Of a stretch of DNA of 32,649 nucleotides, positions 12,283 through 19,193 are shown piece by piece. How positions within the stretch are numbered: the stretch's first letter is position 1; each line of letters opens with the position of its first letter. Under the pieces are notes generated by a model, which did not search any database, was not told the DNA's origin, and was given only the letters and a program-made list of their open reading frames with translations. Position numbers and translations under genes: made by a program. This DNA is from Acidobacteriota bacterium (GTDB lineage: Bacteria > Acidobacteriota > Vicinamibacteria > Vicinamibacterales > UBA2999), in assembly GCA_020851325.1 (NCBI GenBank), contig JADZCY010000354.1, positions 1 through 32,649 on the forward strand, written 5' to 3'.

Positions 12283-12500
12283 GATCGCCTCCCGCGCTTC
12301 ACCGGCCGCTCCCAGCTCAGCGTGACGCGCACGGGTTCGTAGACGTGCAGCGCATAGGGATCGTTCAGTGCAGCCGCTTTCTCCCGTGCCGCGCGCTGCG
12401 TTTCGAACACGCCGCAGTGGGTCGCGAACCTACGCGCGCCAACGCTGTGTACTGCAAGCCCCCACAGCAGCAGCGTGCCGTAGTCTTTGCGGCGGGTCAT
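12273..12500 (-). CDS. small hypothetical protein, 75 aa
   Basis: The start at ATG 12500 overlaps the methyltransferase stop (ATGA); a longer in-frame opening runs into the methyltransferase gene and is unlikely. The product begins MTRRKDYGTLLLWGLAVHSVG and has a compact mixed alpha/beta appearance with a QRAAREKAAALND helix and a C-terminal basic tail. No family recognised. It overlaps the next gene by 10 nt, so it belongs to the same transcript. Confidence 0.55.
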   Translation of the reverse strand: MTRRKDYGTLLLWGLAVHSVGARRFATHCGVFETQRAAREKAAALNDPYALHVYEPVRVTLSWERPVKRGRRSCA

Positions 12501-13021
12501 GGCGCAGCTTCCTCGCCCAGCTTCATGAAGCACACCCAATGCGTCGAGCGCACGGTGCGATGGCCGAACAGCGGCAGGTGCGGCGTGAGATCAAGCACCG
12601 CGCTGAGTTTGATCGAGTGCTCGGCCCACTTGAAAATGAGCGTCCCGTGCGGCTTCAGCACGCGAAAGCACTCGGCGAATCCGGCGCGCAGCACTGCTTG
12701 CCAATCAATGGGCAGGGCGCCGTAGAGCTTGCGGAACTTGCCGTTTCGCCCGGTGCGACTCAGCCCGATGTGCGGCGGATCGAACACGACCAGGTAGAAC
12801 GATTCGTCGGTAAACGGCAGCGCAGTGAAGTCGGCGACGATGTCGGGAGCAACGACCGCGGGCTTGCGGCCAGCGCTCTTGCCGTCCTTCGTCCAGTCGC
12901 GATCGACGATCTCCTGCCGCTTGTCGATGAAGAGGGCCCGACGATCCGCACTGTCGAACCACATCATTCGCGGTCCGCAGCAGGCATCGAGGATCGGCGG
13001 CAGGATTAGTTGTGCGCTCAT
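12497..13021 (-). CDS. class I SAM-dependent methyltransferase (DNA MTase-like)
   Basis: Read from ATG 13021 the protein has 174 residues. It has a class I methyltransferase core: LDACCGPRMMWFD (residues 11-23) as the SAM-binding motif I, ADRRALFIDKR as motif II, VADFTALPF near 62-70, and VVFDPPHIG (78-86) as the catalytic motif IV of the D/N-P-P-[YFWH] type used for amino-group methylation of DNA bases. RVLKPHGTLIFKW (120-132) is the usual following strand. It may protect phage DNA from restriction, but no target-recognition domain is visible. An AGGAGG site 8 nt upstream supports this internal start, although the frame stays open upstream to a second plausible start at 13228. Confidence 0.8.
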   Translation of the reverse strand: MSAQLILPPILDACCGPRMMWFDSADRRALFIDKRQEIVDRDWTKDGKSAGRKPAVVAPDIVADFTALPFTDESFYLVVFDPPHIGLSRTGRNGKFRKLYGALPIDWQAVLRAGFAECFRVLKPHGTLIFKWAEHSIKLSAVLDLTPHLPLFGHRTVRSTHWVCFMKLGEEAAP

Positions 13022-13228
13022 TCGCACGCCCCTCCTGCATCCGCTCCGCACTCTGACGCCATCGAGCATCATGGATGCCGCCCGCTCGGCGTCTAGCTTG
13101 CGAGCGAAGCGGAGCGCCAAGTCAGGATCTTGGCCCCATGCCGACGAACCCTGCCAGTAGTCTGGCTTGGTGACGTGCGACCACGCGCCTTCGATGACCC
13201 AGCCGTAGCTATCAGTCGTCGTTGTCAT
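12497..13228 (-). CDS. alternative 243-aa fusion: small N-terminal module in frame with the methyltransferase
   Basis: ATG 13228 overlaps the stop of the preceding gene (ATGA), so ribosomes probably start here. The first 60 residues (MTTTTDSYGWVIEGAWSH, then DYWQGSSAWGQDPDLALRFARKLDAERAASMML) look like a separate small phage protein that usually ends soon after. Here no stop intervenes: about ten Arg/Gly/Val residues link it to the methyltransferase start. So translation from 13228 must yield a 243-residue fusion, unless the linker has a lost stop. One base off frame, a TGA overlaps the methyltransferase ATG, which would restore the usual separated arrangement. Listed as an alternative to the shorter gene. 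Confidence 0.5.
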   Translation of the reverse strand: MTTTTDSYGWVIEGAWSHVTKPDYWQGSSAWGQDPDLALRFARKLDAERAASMMLDGVRVRSGCRRGVRMSAQLILPPILDACCGPRMMWFDSADRRALFIDKRQEIVDRDWTKDGKSAGRKPAVVAPDIVADFTALPFTDESFYLVVFDPPHIGLSRTGRNGKFRKLYGALPIDWQAVLRAGFAECFRVLKPHGTLIFKWAEHSIKLSAVLDLTPHLPLFGHRTVRSTHWVCFMKLGEEAAP

Positions 13229-13491
13229 CGCATCCGCTCCATTGTAGGTAGTCTGCCCGTGTACTGGAAAACGGTCTGCGCGATCCGCTGGACCTCCCCG
13301 CTGCGACGCCACGCCTGCACGATGCTGTCTGCCGCTCGCATGGTGACCGGGTAATGCTGGTGGTACTCCGGCACACCGGCGTTGATAAGGACGCGCTCGA
13401 TCTCGCTCGTGGTGAACGGCTCCCGCGACTCGACGCGCGCCGTCACCTTGTCCAGCGCGCTCTGCGGTATTTCGACCCCGTATGACTTCAC
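13225..13491 (-). CDS. hypothetical protein, 88 aa
   Basis: Starts at GTG 13491 overlapping the stop of the 41-residue gene (GTGA), with GGAGGT 8 nt upstream; the longer in-frame opening to 13659 runs through two other small genes. The protein starts VKSYGVEIPQSALDKV and is helical, with FTTSEIERVLINAGVP (about 26-41) and a C-terminal IVQAWRRSGEVQRIAQTVFQ segment that could be a winged-helix-like DNA-binding part. No family named. Its stop overlaps the next start. Confidence 0.65.
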   Translation of the reverse strand: MKSYGVEIPQSALDKVTARVESREPFTTSEIERVLINAGVPEYHQHYPVTMRAADSIVQAWRRSGEVQRIAQTVFQYTGRLPTMERMR

Positions 13492-13613
13492 GACTGCCCA
13501 CCTCCCGCGCTTGTCGTCTGTCGTGGAGGTAGACGAAGCGCCTTGCTCTGCCGGCGTAGCAGCGCCTTCAGCCGGGGCGATGTCCCCACCTTCGCGGTCA
13601 GTACCTCGGTCAT
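13488..13613 (-). CDS. very small protein, 41 aa
   Basis: ATG 13613 with GAGG 7 nt upstream and a stop overlapping the next GTG. The peptide is MTEVLTAKVGTSPRLKALLR then QSKALRLPPR and ends SAGGGQS: basic, no membrane segment. The exact fit between neighbouring signals supports it; the function is unknown. Confidence 0.45.
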   Translation of the reverse strand: MTEVLTAKVGTSPRLKALLRRQSKALRLPPRQTTSAGGGQS

Positions 13614-13891: not shown

Positions 13892-15505
13892 TCACGACTC
13901 GAATCCCGGCCGATAGTCCTGCGGTCGTGCGAACACCAGCGAGCCGTCCGCTTTCCGCCACGTCGACGCAGCAGCAGCGAGGCAATCGCGCGCCGCTTCG
14001 CCGCTGTACGCCCGCGGATCGACGCGCAGCAGGTAGCGCTTCGTCGTGCCGTCCGGCTCGGGCGTCGAGTTGAGCAGATCGATCATGATGATCGGCTCAT
14101 CGCCCGGCACGTCTTTGCGCAGCAGCCGAGCAGACTGCAGCCCTTTCAGGTAGTAGTTGTCCGGCAGCTCGTGCACGACAGTGGCGCCGGAGTCCCGGAG
14201 GTAACGGCCTTGGCCGTAGCGCTCGATCAGGACCCTGCGCACCTCGGCGTTACTCTCGGCCTCGATCGATTGCACGCTGATGAGGCCCGGCTCTTCGACG
14301 ACATGGCGCGGCACCTGCACGCCGTGCCAATGCCACATTCCCCAGCCGGACGGCCAGCCGATGGACTGGCCCGTCTCGCTATGCAGTCGACCGCGAGCAT
14401 CGAGATGGATGACGCGCGGACGCTCAGAGGCGAAACACACGTCGCCGAGAGTCCAGTAATAGCCGCAGGACTCGACGAGATCGAGGTAATTGCGGTCGAT
14501 CGATACACCGAGCACGGCGTTGAAATAGTCCGCCCAGGCAGCATAGGCTGGCCAGAGCGATCCGCCCCAATATGCGGCGAGACCAGCGCTGCGCGCTCCC
14601 GCGCACGCCTCAGTCCATTTTTCGCGCGTGACTTTTCGAGGCCGCGACTCGACGGCCGAGACGACGGCCGACTCGACGGCCGAGCGGACGGCCGAGCGGA
14701 CGGCCGAGTCGACGGCCGAGCCGACGGCCGAGTCGACGGCCGAGTCGACGGCCGAGACGACGGCCGAGCCGACGGCCGAGACGACGGCCGACTCGACGGC
14801 CGAGCGGACGGCCGAGCGGACGGCCGAGCGGACGGCCGAGCCGACGGCCGAGCGGACGGCCGAGTCGACGGCCGACTCGACGGCCGAGTCGACGGCCGAC
14901 TCGACGGCCGAGTCGACGGCCGAGACGACGGCCGACTCGACGGCCGAGCGGACGGCCGAGCGGACGGCCGAGCGGACGGCCGAGCCGACGGCCGAGCGGA
15001 CGGCCGAGCCGACGGCCGACTCGACGGCCGACTCGACGGCCGAGCGGACGGCCGAGTCGACGGCCGAGCCGACGGCCGAGTCGACGGCCGACTCGACGGC
15101 CGAGTCGACGGCCGAGACGACGGCCGACTCGACGGCCGAGACGACGGCCGACTCGACGGCCGAGCGGACGGCCGAGTCGACGGCCGAGCGGACGGCCGAG
15201 TCGACGGCCGACTCGACGGCCGAGCGGACGGCCGAGCGGACGGCCGAGACGACGGCCGAGCGGACGGTGCCCGTGTTTCGCAGCATCGCATACGTCACGA
15301 CCGCCATCGCTGCGGACAGCGGGCAAGGCAGCCAGATCACGCGCGGCTCGCGCAGGTTGGCGAGGCGATACAGCCCCGCGATCGCGCGTTCGGCGCGCTC
15401 ACGATCGGCAGGCTGCGTGGACAGGCCGATGTCTGTCCACTTCTTGACGAACTCGGGGAATCGCGCCTTTTGCTTGGCTGTCAGCGCCATGATCTTGCGT
15501 GCCAT
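13892..15505 (-). CDS. DUF6745-like protein with 51 SAVx tetrapeptide repeats
   Basis: From ATG 15505 the protein is 537 residues; the longer opening to 15814 overlaps another gene out of frame. Residues 1-82 are a helical domain (MALTAKQKARFPEFVKKWTD, then ADRERAERAIAGLYRLA). Residues 83-285 are 51 copies of S-A-V-x with x = R 15, E 12, D 11, V 7, G 6. Residues 286-537 form the conserved C-terminal domain: WTEACAGARSAGLAAYWGGS, GYYWTLGDVCFASERP, HSETGQSIGWPSGWGMWHWH and SGATVVHELPDNYYL. The last two parts match what I know as DUF6745, a family of unknown function in which AVxxAV repeats are common, though rarely so uniform at DNA level. The next gene upstream (15516-15842) is a frequent partner. 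Confidence 0.75.
   Translation of the reverse strand: MARKIMALTAKQKARFPEFVKKWTDIGLSTQPADRERAERAIAGLYRLANLREPRVIWLPCPLSAAMAVVTYAMLRNTGTVRSAVVSAVRSAVRSAVESAVDSAVRSAVDSAVRSAVESAVVSAVESAVVSAVDSAVESAVDSAVGSAVDSAVRSAVESAVESAVGSAVRSAVGSAVRSAVRSAVRSAVESAVVSAVDSAVESAVDSAVESAVDSAVRSAVGSAVRSAVRSAVRSAVESAVVSAVGSAVVSAVDSAVDSAVGSAVDSAVRSAVRSAVESAVVSAVESRPRKVTREKWTEACAGARSAGLAAYWGGSLWPAYAAWADYFNAVLGVSIDRNYLDLVESCGYYWTLGDVCFASERPRVIHLDARGRLHSETGQSIGWPSGWGMWHWHGVQVPRHVVEEPGLISVQSIEAESNAEVRRVLIERYGQGRYLRDSGATVVHELPDNYYLKGLQSARLLRKDVPGDEPIIMIDLLNSTPEPDGTTKRYLLRVDPRAYSGEAARDCLAAAASTWRKADGSLVFARPQDYRPGFES
14651..15259 (-). repeat. 51-unit tandem 12-bp repeat (SAVx codons)
   Basis: On the plus strand the 9-mer GACGGCCGA occurs 51 times at exact 12-bp spacing; the intervening triplet is only GCG, GTC, CTC, GAC or GCC (minus-strand codons for R, D, E, V, G). 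The constant part shows no synonymous change. A seven-unit pattern (x = R G R R R E V) occurs twice, at units 22-28 and 34-40 counted from the N-terminus, 144 bp apart, showing block duplication. Every unit holds the palindrome CGGCCG. No stop arises in any frame, which is why several false long frames cross it. Confidence 0.97.
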
Positions 15506-15515
15506 GGTGCCGCCC

Positions 15516-15842
15516 TCAGTCCGCGACGCGCTGCAGTTCTTCAGGGCTGTACTCAACTTGCTGGGGCAGCTCGTACAGCCCGGGCGGCACATGCGCGGTC
15601 TCGTGCTCTTCATGGCGTAGGAGCGCGGTCGTCTCGACGATGCGCAAGAAGCGGCGGCGCGGCTCCTGCTTGGACTGCAGCAGCACGACACCGCGGTCGT
15701 AGAACGCATGCGCGTGGCCGGTACTTTCTCCGTGCATGAGCACGACGCGGCCCTCCTTCGGCGTGACGTCCTCGACGTCGGCGGGTAGATCGGCAATCGG
15801 GACCAGGCAGACATCGCCCTGGCGGATGATCGGGTTCTTCAC
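15516..15842 (-). CDS. conserved hypothetical phage protein, 108 aa
   Basis: Starts at GTG 15842 with AAGGAG 8 nt upstream. The product opens KNPIIRQGDVCLVPIADLPA, continues GRVVLMHGESTGHAHAFYD and ends HVPPGLYELPQQVEYSPEEL, a beta-rich pattern (RQGDV, GEsTGHaHa, lppG-Y-v-qqrEYspe) seen in a widespread family of small proteins that I recall next to DUF6745 genes. No catalytic motif is clear, though the conserved HAHAF and HEEHET histidines could bind metal. It ends 10 nt before the DUF6745-like start. Confidence 0.7.
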   Translation of the reverse strand: MKNPIIRQGDVCLVPIADLPADVEDVTPKEGRVVLMHGESTGHAHAFYDRGVVLLQSKQEPRRRFLRIVETTALLRHEEHETAHVPPGLYELPQQVEYSPEELQRVAD

Positions 15843-18242: not shown

Positions 18243-18436
18243 GACCGAATCTCCTGCAGCGCGTGGCAGTAGCCCTCGTGGTATGCCCGGCGCATCAACG
18301 AGGCGATGTCCTCGGGATTGCCGCTGACGAACATGTGCAGTTCGCGCATCAGGGCCGCGACCGTCTCGTTGCAGCGGTCGTGACGCTTGGGCAGGCCGGG
18401 CGCGCGGGTCTCGGACTCGATCAGTTCGGCGCTCAT
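18239..18436 (-). CDS. small hypothetical protein, 65 aa
   Basis: ATG 18436 overlaps the pentapeptide-protein stop (ATGA), with GGAGG 5 nt upstream; a longer in-frame start overlaps that gene. The sequence begins MSAELIESETRAPGLPKRHD and is helical thereafter (NETVAALMRELHMFV, IASLMRRAYHEGYCHALQEI). It has two cysteines and several histidines. No family recognised. Confidence 0.6.
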   Translation of the reverse strand: MSAELIESETRAPGLPKRHDRCNETVAALMRELHMFVSGNPEDIASLMRRAYHEGYCHALQEIRS

Positions 18437-18936
18437 GCGGCCTCCGATGCCGACTGCGCCGGCGTCCAGTGCTGCGCGTGGCACTCAATCAGCGCAATCG
18501 CCGCGCGGTATTCGTGGCCATGCACGCTCTGGCCGTGCTCGCGCTCGACGGCCGCCTTAAACGCTTCCAGCCTGTCCCAGAAGCACCCGGCGCGGACCCA
18601 CACGCCCGCGTCCGTCAGCCACGCTTGCAGCATGTCGTGGCGCGAGCCTATCGGGCCGAGCGTGAGATGCGGTCGGCCGCCGACGAGCGTCAGTTTCTGG
18701 CCATCCGCGCCGTGCAGGTACGCGCTGCTCAGGTCCGCGCCGCGCAGGTCCGCGCCGTGCAGGTCCGCGCCGCTCAGGTCCGCGTCGCGCAGGATCGCGC
18801 CGTGCAGGTCCGCGCCGTGCAGGTACGCGCGCGCCTTCACGGCCGCCTCGACGCAGAGTTTGAGCGACTCGGTTTTGAGGCTGAACAGCACCGAGCCCGT
18901 GAAGCGCGACTTGATTTCGAACTTGACCGCGCTCAC
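18433..18936 (-). CDS. pentapeptide-repeat protein with unique C-terminal part
   Basis: GTG 18936 overlaps the upstream stop (GTGA), giving 167 residues. After a head (SAVKFEIKSRFTGSVLFSLK, then ESLKLCVEAAVKAR) come eight consecutive A-x-L-x-x pentapeptides at residues 37-76: AYLHG, ADLHG, AILRD, ADLSG, ADLHG, ADLRG, ADLSS, AYLHG, which would form about two turns of a right-handed square beta-helix. Residues 77-167 are a separate domain with IGSRHDMLQAWLTDAG, AGCFWDRLEAFKAAV and AAIALIECHAQHW. Phage proteins with this head and pentapeptides are frequent; their role is unknown. DNA-mimicry, as in Qnr/MfpA, needs far more repeats, so is not implied here. Confidence 0.85.
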   Translation of the reverse strand: MSAVKFEIKSRFTGSVLFSLKTESLKLCVEAAVKARAYLHGADLHGAILRDADLSGADLHGADLRGADLSSAYLHGADGQKLTLVGGRPHLTLGPIGSRHDMLQAWLTDAGVWVRAGCFWDRLEAFKAAVEREHGQSVHGHEYRAAIALIECHAQHWTPAQSASEAA

Positions 18937-19193
18937 TTGCCACCCCACAGCGCGACGGGGCGCGCGTAGCGCGCATCCGCCATGCGCTGTTCGGCCGCCT
19001 CGAAATGGTCATACTCAAGCGAACCGCCGAAGTCCTCACAAACCTCGCAAGAATCGCCCTCGTCGGGGAAAGGCATATCTTTGCGCAGGTAGGCCGCGCG
19101 GCAGTCGTCGCACGCGATCAGGTCAGGGTCATAGGTCGCGCTGTTTTCGCCGCAGCCCGTGCAGTCAAATTCCCGGTAAGTCTTGGTGTTCAT
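18933..19193 (-). CDS. small protein with three CxxC knuckles, 86 aa
   Basis: First gene of the leftward operon. ATG 19193 has GGGAGG 7 nt upstream and lies about 30 nt after the predicted start of transcription; in-frame ATG 19250 lies in the promoter and is rejected. Cys pairs C11/C14, C28/C31 and C49/C52 suggest one or two zinc sites. The body reads MNTKTYREFDCTGCGENS, then acidic loops and a helical FEAAEQRMADARY end. The function is unknown; it could be a nucleic-acid-binding or regulatory protein. Confidence 0.65.
   Translation of the reverse strand: MNTKTYREFDCTGCGENSATYDPDLIACDDCRAAYLRKDMPFPDEGDSCEVCEDFGGSLEYDHFEAAEQRMADARYARPVALWGGK

Follow-up and report, generated by a model that had tools for sequence, protein, structure and literature searches.

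A Coding Minisatellite Under Selection at Its Variable Codon in a Phage DUF6745 Protein Encoded Beside a Conserved Partner Gene

The Array Gene and Its Phage Surroundings

The window, the whole stretch of DNA analyzed here, is one complete contig of 32,649 bases within a 458-contig bin, and it carries the genes of a tailed phage, including those for a P22-like portal, a terminase large subunit, and a capsid protein. Apart from these virion genes lies a minus-strand cluster of Gp157, NinB/DUF1367, HNH, methyltransferase, and pentapeptide-repeat genes, a neighborhood of the early/recombination type (Gp157, NinB, HNH), and this cluster includes the gene for the array protein P0002 (Table 1). Because the contig is that of a tailed phage and few genomes of the host's phylum encode DUF6745 (3 of 396, the window's bin counted), the array gene is most simply regarded as a phage gene. 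The P0002 ORF is the only match within its own genome bin. Candidate homologues from host genomes of the same genus are Ala/Val-rich low-complexity stretches rather than DUF6745 and were rejected, and matches of the array to MSCRAMM, DUF445, tape-measure, and PADLOC REase_II models look like composition effects. Two neighbors are also listed in Table 1: a methyltransferase gene close to the array gene and a pentapeptide-repeat gene that holds a second coding repeat of the same phage.

Table 1. Features of the window that surround or make up the array gene
Feature	Position	Strand	Description and evidence
Methyltransferase gene	12497..13501	-	matches PADLOC MTase_II and orphan MTase models; first residues may reflect a misread start
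DUF6745 array ORF (P0002)	13892..15505	-	537 aa (15505..13895) plus stop; N-terminal domain + (SAVx)51 + DUF6745
DUF6745 domain (PF20530), residues 322-501	14003..14542	-	Pfam match
Tetrapeptide array, 51 x TCGGCCGTC + variable codon, residues 83-286	14648..15259	-	repeat and codon counts
N-terminal domain, FPEFVKKWTDIGLST..., ~residues 1-76	15278..15505	-	alignments with phage relatives; pLDDT mostly >85
Partner gene, 108 aa, phrog_27831-like, RQGDV..GHxH..HEEH motifs	15516..15842	-	PHROG E 1.2e-13; adjacency across loci
Pentapeptide-repeat protein gene	18433..18948	-	PF00805
15-bp array in the pentapeptide-repeat gene	18704..18834		~9 copies

P0002 consists of an N-terminal domain that alignments show to be common to its phage relatives, a period-4 array, and a DUF6745 domain, the same order as in other array-bearing phage DUF6745 proteins. 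Its C-terminal part matches Pfam PF20530 with an E-value of 3.2e-38 and 131.5 bits, against a gathering cut-off of 27, and is thus a member of the family (phage version, phrog_31813); an earlier note on this DNA, made from the sequence alone, had rightly called the protein DUF6745-like. The array comprises 51 consecutive 12-bp units (612 bp) in which TCGGCCGTC is used in 51 of 51 units, followed by a variable fourth codon, x: CGC (15), GAG (12), GAC (11), GTC (7), or GGC (6). The x residues are R15, E12, D11, V7, and G6, with no other variants, and GAG among the NNC codons breaks the fixed third base of x. TRF places 51.3 copies of a 12-bp repeat at 14645-15260, and SAV recurs exactly 51 times in the minus-strand ORF, at intervals of 4 residues; these counts confirm the 51 near-perfect repeats, nine invariant bases, and five x codons described in the earlier note. 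The end coordinate given there (15259) also stands, whereas the start (14651) omits the last x codon. A seven-unit pattern was said to be duplicated 144 bp apart, and RGRRREV does occur at units 22 and 34, 12 units from each other; since shuffled x strings contain a repeat as long in 1.3% of trials, the duplication is only modestly unusual.

In the AlphaFold2 model of P0002 the two end domains are confident and the array is drawn as long helices with pLDDT of ~30-60, a drawing that speaks neither for nor against a solenoid, be it the Ala/Val one proposed in the earlier note or a pentapeptide-type or other beta solenoid. Structure search found no PDB relatives of the model (VIA-align Z no higher than 5.3, for a short beta stretch), and a search of BFVD gave confident matches to DUF6745-like phage proteins only.

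The Partner Gene

The partner gene of the window stops 10 bp before the start of the DUF6745 ORF. Partner proteins are 100-130 aa long and share the RQGDV, GHxH, and HEEH motifs. Of 58 loci, some of them overlapping stretches of one contig, 46 have the partner next to DUF6745 and on its strand; in the remaining 12 the DUF6745 ORF runs off the contig edge, and the partner is present wherever the flank is intact. It lies upstream of DUF6745 in some loci and downstream in others. When the partner served as the starting point of a search, DUF6745 was recovered in three of four genomes, one of them that of the window. One locus, L077, has a partner-like protein with no recognizable DUF6745 neighbor in the stretch fetched. 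Searches for protein families and solved structures related to the partner found only PHROG 27831, and the survey of DUF6745 neighbors found neither consistent anti-defense genes nor any consistent family besides the partner itself.

The partner also adjoins cellular DUF6745 genes, which have no array. In L066, L067, and L071 this cellular pair stands beside genes of the STM4011-STM4015 family (radical SAM, hydrolase, and others), with STM4011-STM4013 in Deinococcus and STM4014/STM4015 in Streptomyces. The pairing in cellular genomes is what would be expected if the phage array were a spacer or ruler of tunable length in a two-component protein that has a cellular-type role unrelated to counter-defense. 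Against this, arrays turn up mainly in phage and mobile contexts and change quickly, a pattern more suggestive of conflict than of housekeeping; a ruler of this kind is possible but on the unlikely side.

Arrays in Homologous Proteins

Relatives were sought in IMG/VR and in phage, plasmid, and genome collections, which yielded more than 40 DUF6745 loci. Array-bearing members come from IMG/VR, GenBank phages, a plasmid, and MAGs, and most loci that reach the site hold a period-4 array at the same place as in P0002. The repeated motif is SAVx, SQVx, AATx, DQLx, AQVx, SSLx, or mixed ASV/DSV. Arrays are also present in deposited complete records (prophage prophiGD102-1, MW202476, and a Nocardia farcinica plasmid) and therefore are not purely metagenome artifacts. 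The DUF6745 protein of the M. abscessus prophage prophiGD102-1 is gp38 (L068, 2083-3528), with ~45 [D/G]QLx units. In the N. farcinica plasmid (L072, 739-1929) GPGVGPGGG is read from the 5' portion of the array, apparently an out-of-frame AQV/DQV repeat caused by a frameshift or sequencing indel. Two phage homologues, L045 and L046, keep just a few units, and the cellular DUF6745 proteins of Streptomyces and Deinococcus, unlike P0002, have no array. The homologue in L076, from another bin, has a degraded array with V still at most fourth positions, and this retention suggests a structural need for that residue.

These relatives bear on the possibility, raised in the earlier note, that the array is itself a DNA element; as such it could be a protein-binding or recombination site whose coding capacity is incidental. 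The window does hold 51 near-palindromic units that contain CGGCCG, a site found in every unit because of the codons used in this array. Equivalent protein arrays in relatives are written in other codons (AGCCAAGTG, TCAGCGGTG, TCGCAGGTC, and GCTGCGACC), all of which lack CGGCCG; the homologues thus preserve protein motif and period with entirely different DNA units, and the reading frame and flanking domains are kept as well. Such codon replacement contradicts a role for the DNA as such, which is highly implausible.

The two end domains differ in how closely they follow the array. N-terminal domain identity is 0.59 within a motif type and 0.37 between types, compared with 0.46 and 0.34 for the C-terminal domain, so that motif type tracks the N-terminal domain more than the C-terminal one. 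P0002 and L055 are 77% identical in the N-domain but only 40% in the C-domain. From these alignments the domains appear to have been reassorted at or beyond the array.

Length and Order Variation Between Near-Identical Phages

Arrays differ between phages that are otherwise almost the same. L041 and L042 show 2 mismatches in ~6.4 kb, yet they have 26 and 29 units, of which the first 23 are identical while the 3' ends differ. Four further alleles (L054, L055, L057, and L063), whose flanks are at least 99% shared, hold ≥34, 19, ≥14, and ≥8 units, respectively; here the arrays are shuffled, with moved and duplicated blocks still recognizable. All these unit counts depend on the cut-point for imperfect edge units. 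The earlier expectations of recent block expansion and of copy number varying between relatives are supported by these comparisons. Most alleles are metagenome assemblies, and exact array lengths in them need caution because at least 16 contigs end within the array, as expected if it defeats short-read assembly. Four phage contigs carry the array at both ends (L004/L010, L056/L064, L058/L060, and L059/L061), which is how a circular genome would look if the assembler had opened it within the array. A 20-base probe found no close relatives of the window phage in IMG/VR, and array variation is known from the other phages.

Selection on the Variable Residue

In almost every array a single sequence serves for the nine motif bases of all units, and this sequence differs between phages. 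In 33 arrays (825 units) there are 98 extra x residue types, one silent motif variant, and one synonymous x variant. Because the set included arrays retrieved with an exact DNA pattern as well as arrays allelic to each other, the count was repeated on 23 non-redundant arrays found by protein (562 units), which gave 67 extra x residue types against a single silent variant (p~6e-21 if both kinds of change had equal opportunity). Since the silent sites and x have the same genealogy, turnover without selection should leave them about equally variable (silent:x ~1) whatever its rate, and neutral simulations gave about 1:1. Judged by these sequence counts, the variable x residues are not neutral.

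A neutral linker, flexible and enlarged by slippage or unequal exchange while x drifts, would account for arrays that vary in length and order, for the scarcity or absence of units in L045, L046, and the cellular proteins, and for the low AlphaFold2 confidence in the array. It also predicts about as many silent as x variants, where 1 is observed against 67 to 98, and is strongly disfavored by that count. Nor does drift fit the restricted set of x residues: arrays with third base G at x use R, G, W, and E, which make up nearly all of x in SQV arrays, and those with third base C or T use mostly D, G, R, and Y. A neutral linker is improbable. The general pattern at x is a mix of acidic residues, Gly, Arg, and aromatics, with one fixed third base per array; the changeable charge pattern proposed in the earlier note fits the data as one part of this broader rule. 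Ala and Val codons, which are equally close, are rare at x outside the window array, so x residues appear to be filtered.

Restriction of the variation largely to the first two bases of x, with the third fixed, and the fact that most x codons are one step from GGN or GAN, are also consistent with a mutator, DGR-like or other, that targets these two bases and whose changes are spread by recombination. A diversity-generating retroelement target was rejected: no PF00078 (reverse transcriptase) match was found in 23 phage records, some of them fragments, or in the host bin, and the changes are not adenine-specific. That Ala and Val codons, although equally close, are seldom used suggests filtering of residues. 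A mutator of any kind is decidedly improbable, though targeted change at x keeps some likelihood, since even the best simulated setting without it leaves some silent variants.

That setting comes from simulations, small and with arbitrary rates, in which x is kept mixed. With whole-unit turnover ~4 silent variants per array remain, because unit types diverge; when breakpoints fall within units and turnover is 300 times as frequent as mutation, 0.4 remain. At best 10 of 16 simulated arrays are without silent variants, compared with 22 of 23 observed. The silent/x counts and these simulations together favor very fast intra-unit recombination with selection for a mixed x, which comes closest among the models simulated.

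Parallels to Other Coding Arrays

Mycobacteriophage Tweety gp54 provides the closest parallel, and its role in counter-defense was reportedly first described by Dedrick et al. in 2017. Like P0002, gp54 has a tetrapeptide array with a 12-bp unit between unique N- and C-terminal parts, with two invariant (Ala) codons and invariant third codon positions, and its gene, like the array gene, lies outside the virion genes and appears non-essential (PMC2884959). The array has 48, 26, and 15 copies in three related phages (Tweety gp54, Che8 gp57, and PMC gp51), from which selection for variation was inferred (PMC2884959); the same authors guessed in 2007 that similar arrays may be more widespread. In contrast to P0002, the gp54 motif is AAxx, with two variable positions drawn from G/W/Q and S/Y (codons GGG/TGG/CAG and AGC/TAC in a recount). 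Of the two proteins only gp54 has evidence for counter-defense: mutants that escape the Phrann and MichelleMyBell prophage defenses change the gp54 repeat number (reviewed in PMC9262239, PMC8549241). By these features the P0002 family has a gp54-type array, with copy-number variation found in relatives rather than in this phage and with GAG as the exception to the fixed third base. The two proteins share no detectable sequence similarity (BLASTP E 68), and gp54 has no Pfam match and is not a DUF6745 protein; the analogy is accordingly one of the arrays.

Other coding arrays offer looser comparisons. VR2 of bbp36 in Bordetella phage BPP-1 is likewise an in-frame repeat array in a phage gene, with 9-20 copies between isolates (PMC2884959), but its unit is 24 bp long (GTATAGYR) and its protein is unrelated to P0002. 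The phage context, the conserved neighbor, and the gp54 parallel did not figure in the earlier note. PRDM9 zinc fingers and TALE repeats are coding arrays with a fixed frame, a homogenized unit, and hypervariable contact residues at set positions; unlike the P0002 array, their units are folded domains with known ligands.

A Possible Role and Its Significance

In summary, the DUF6745 protein of this phage contains a coding minisatellite whose x position is under selection, and its gene belongs to a conserved pair. The preferred explanation, which we put at somewhat under an even chance, is a two-gene module of the GHxH/HEEH protein and the DUF6745 protein in which the minisatellite, driven by recombination, tunes a phage antagonist, probably one of counter-defense. 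Two folded end domains would be joined by the array. On the statistics and simulations, units would recombine with one another at breakpoints within them, far more often than point mutations arise; this exchange would resize and homogenize the array, and selection would keep x heterogeneous (acidic, Gly, Arg, and aromatic). By analogy to gp54, repeat number and x pattern may tune the spacing or binding of the terminal domains, and the tuned protein may antagonize changing host or prophage targets, most likely defense proteins. The dynamics of array change are well supported, and the tunable-antagonist role, drawn from the analogy, is plausible. Counting against this explanation, a literature search found no functional data for any DUF6745 protein, and the neighbor survey found no consistent anti-defense genes. 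A wider reading is possible, if rather doubtful: DUF6745 and its partner might be a widespread phage module for counter-defense (or interference), convergent with Tweety gp54, whose adaptation would consist in changing the length and order of a tetrapeptide code with four letters (acidic/Gly/Arg/aromatic), and array recombination might join an N-domain-plus-array to different C-domains.

The array would represent a natural means of diversifying a protein through recombination, and the records searched gave no hint of a reverse transcriptase. The silent/x statistic, by which x is non-neutral, makes the tuning idea testable. Tweety gp54, formerly singular, now has a counterpart with a similar array in a phage protein family unrelated to it. 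These array-bearing DUF6745 proteins and their conserved partner gene span phages and mobile elements of several bacterial groups.
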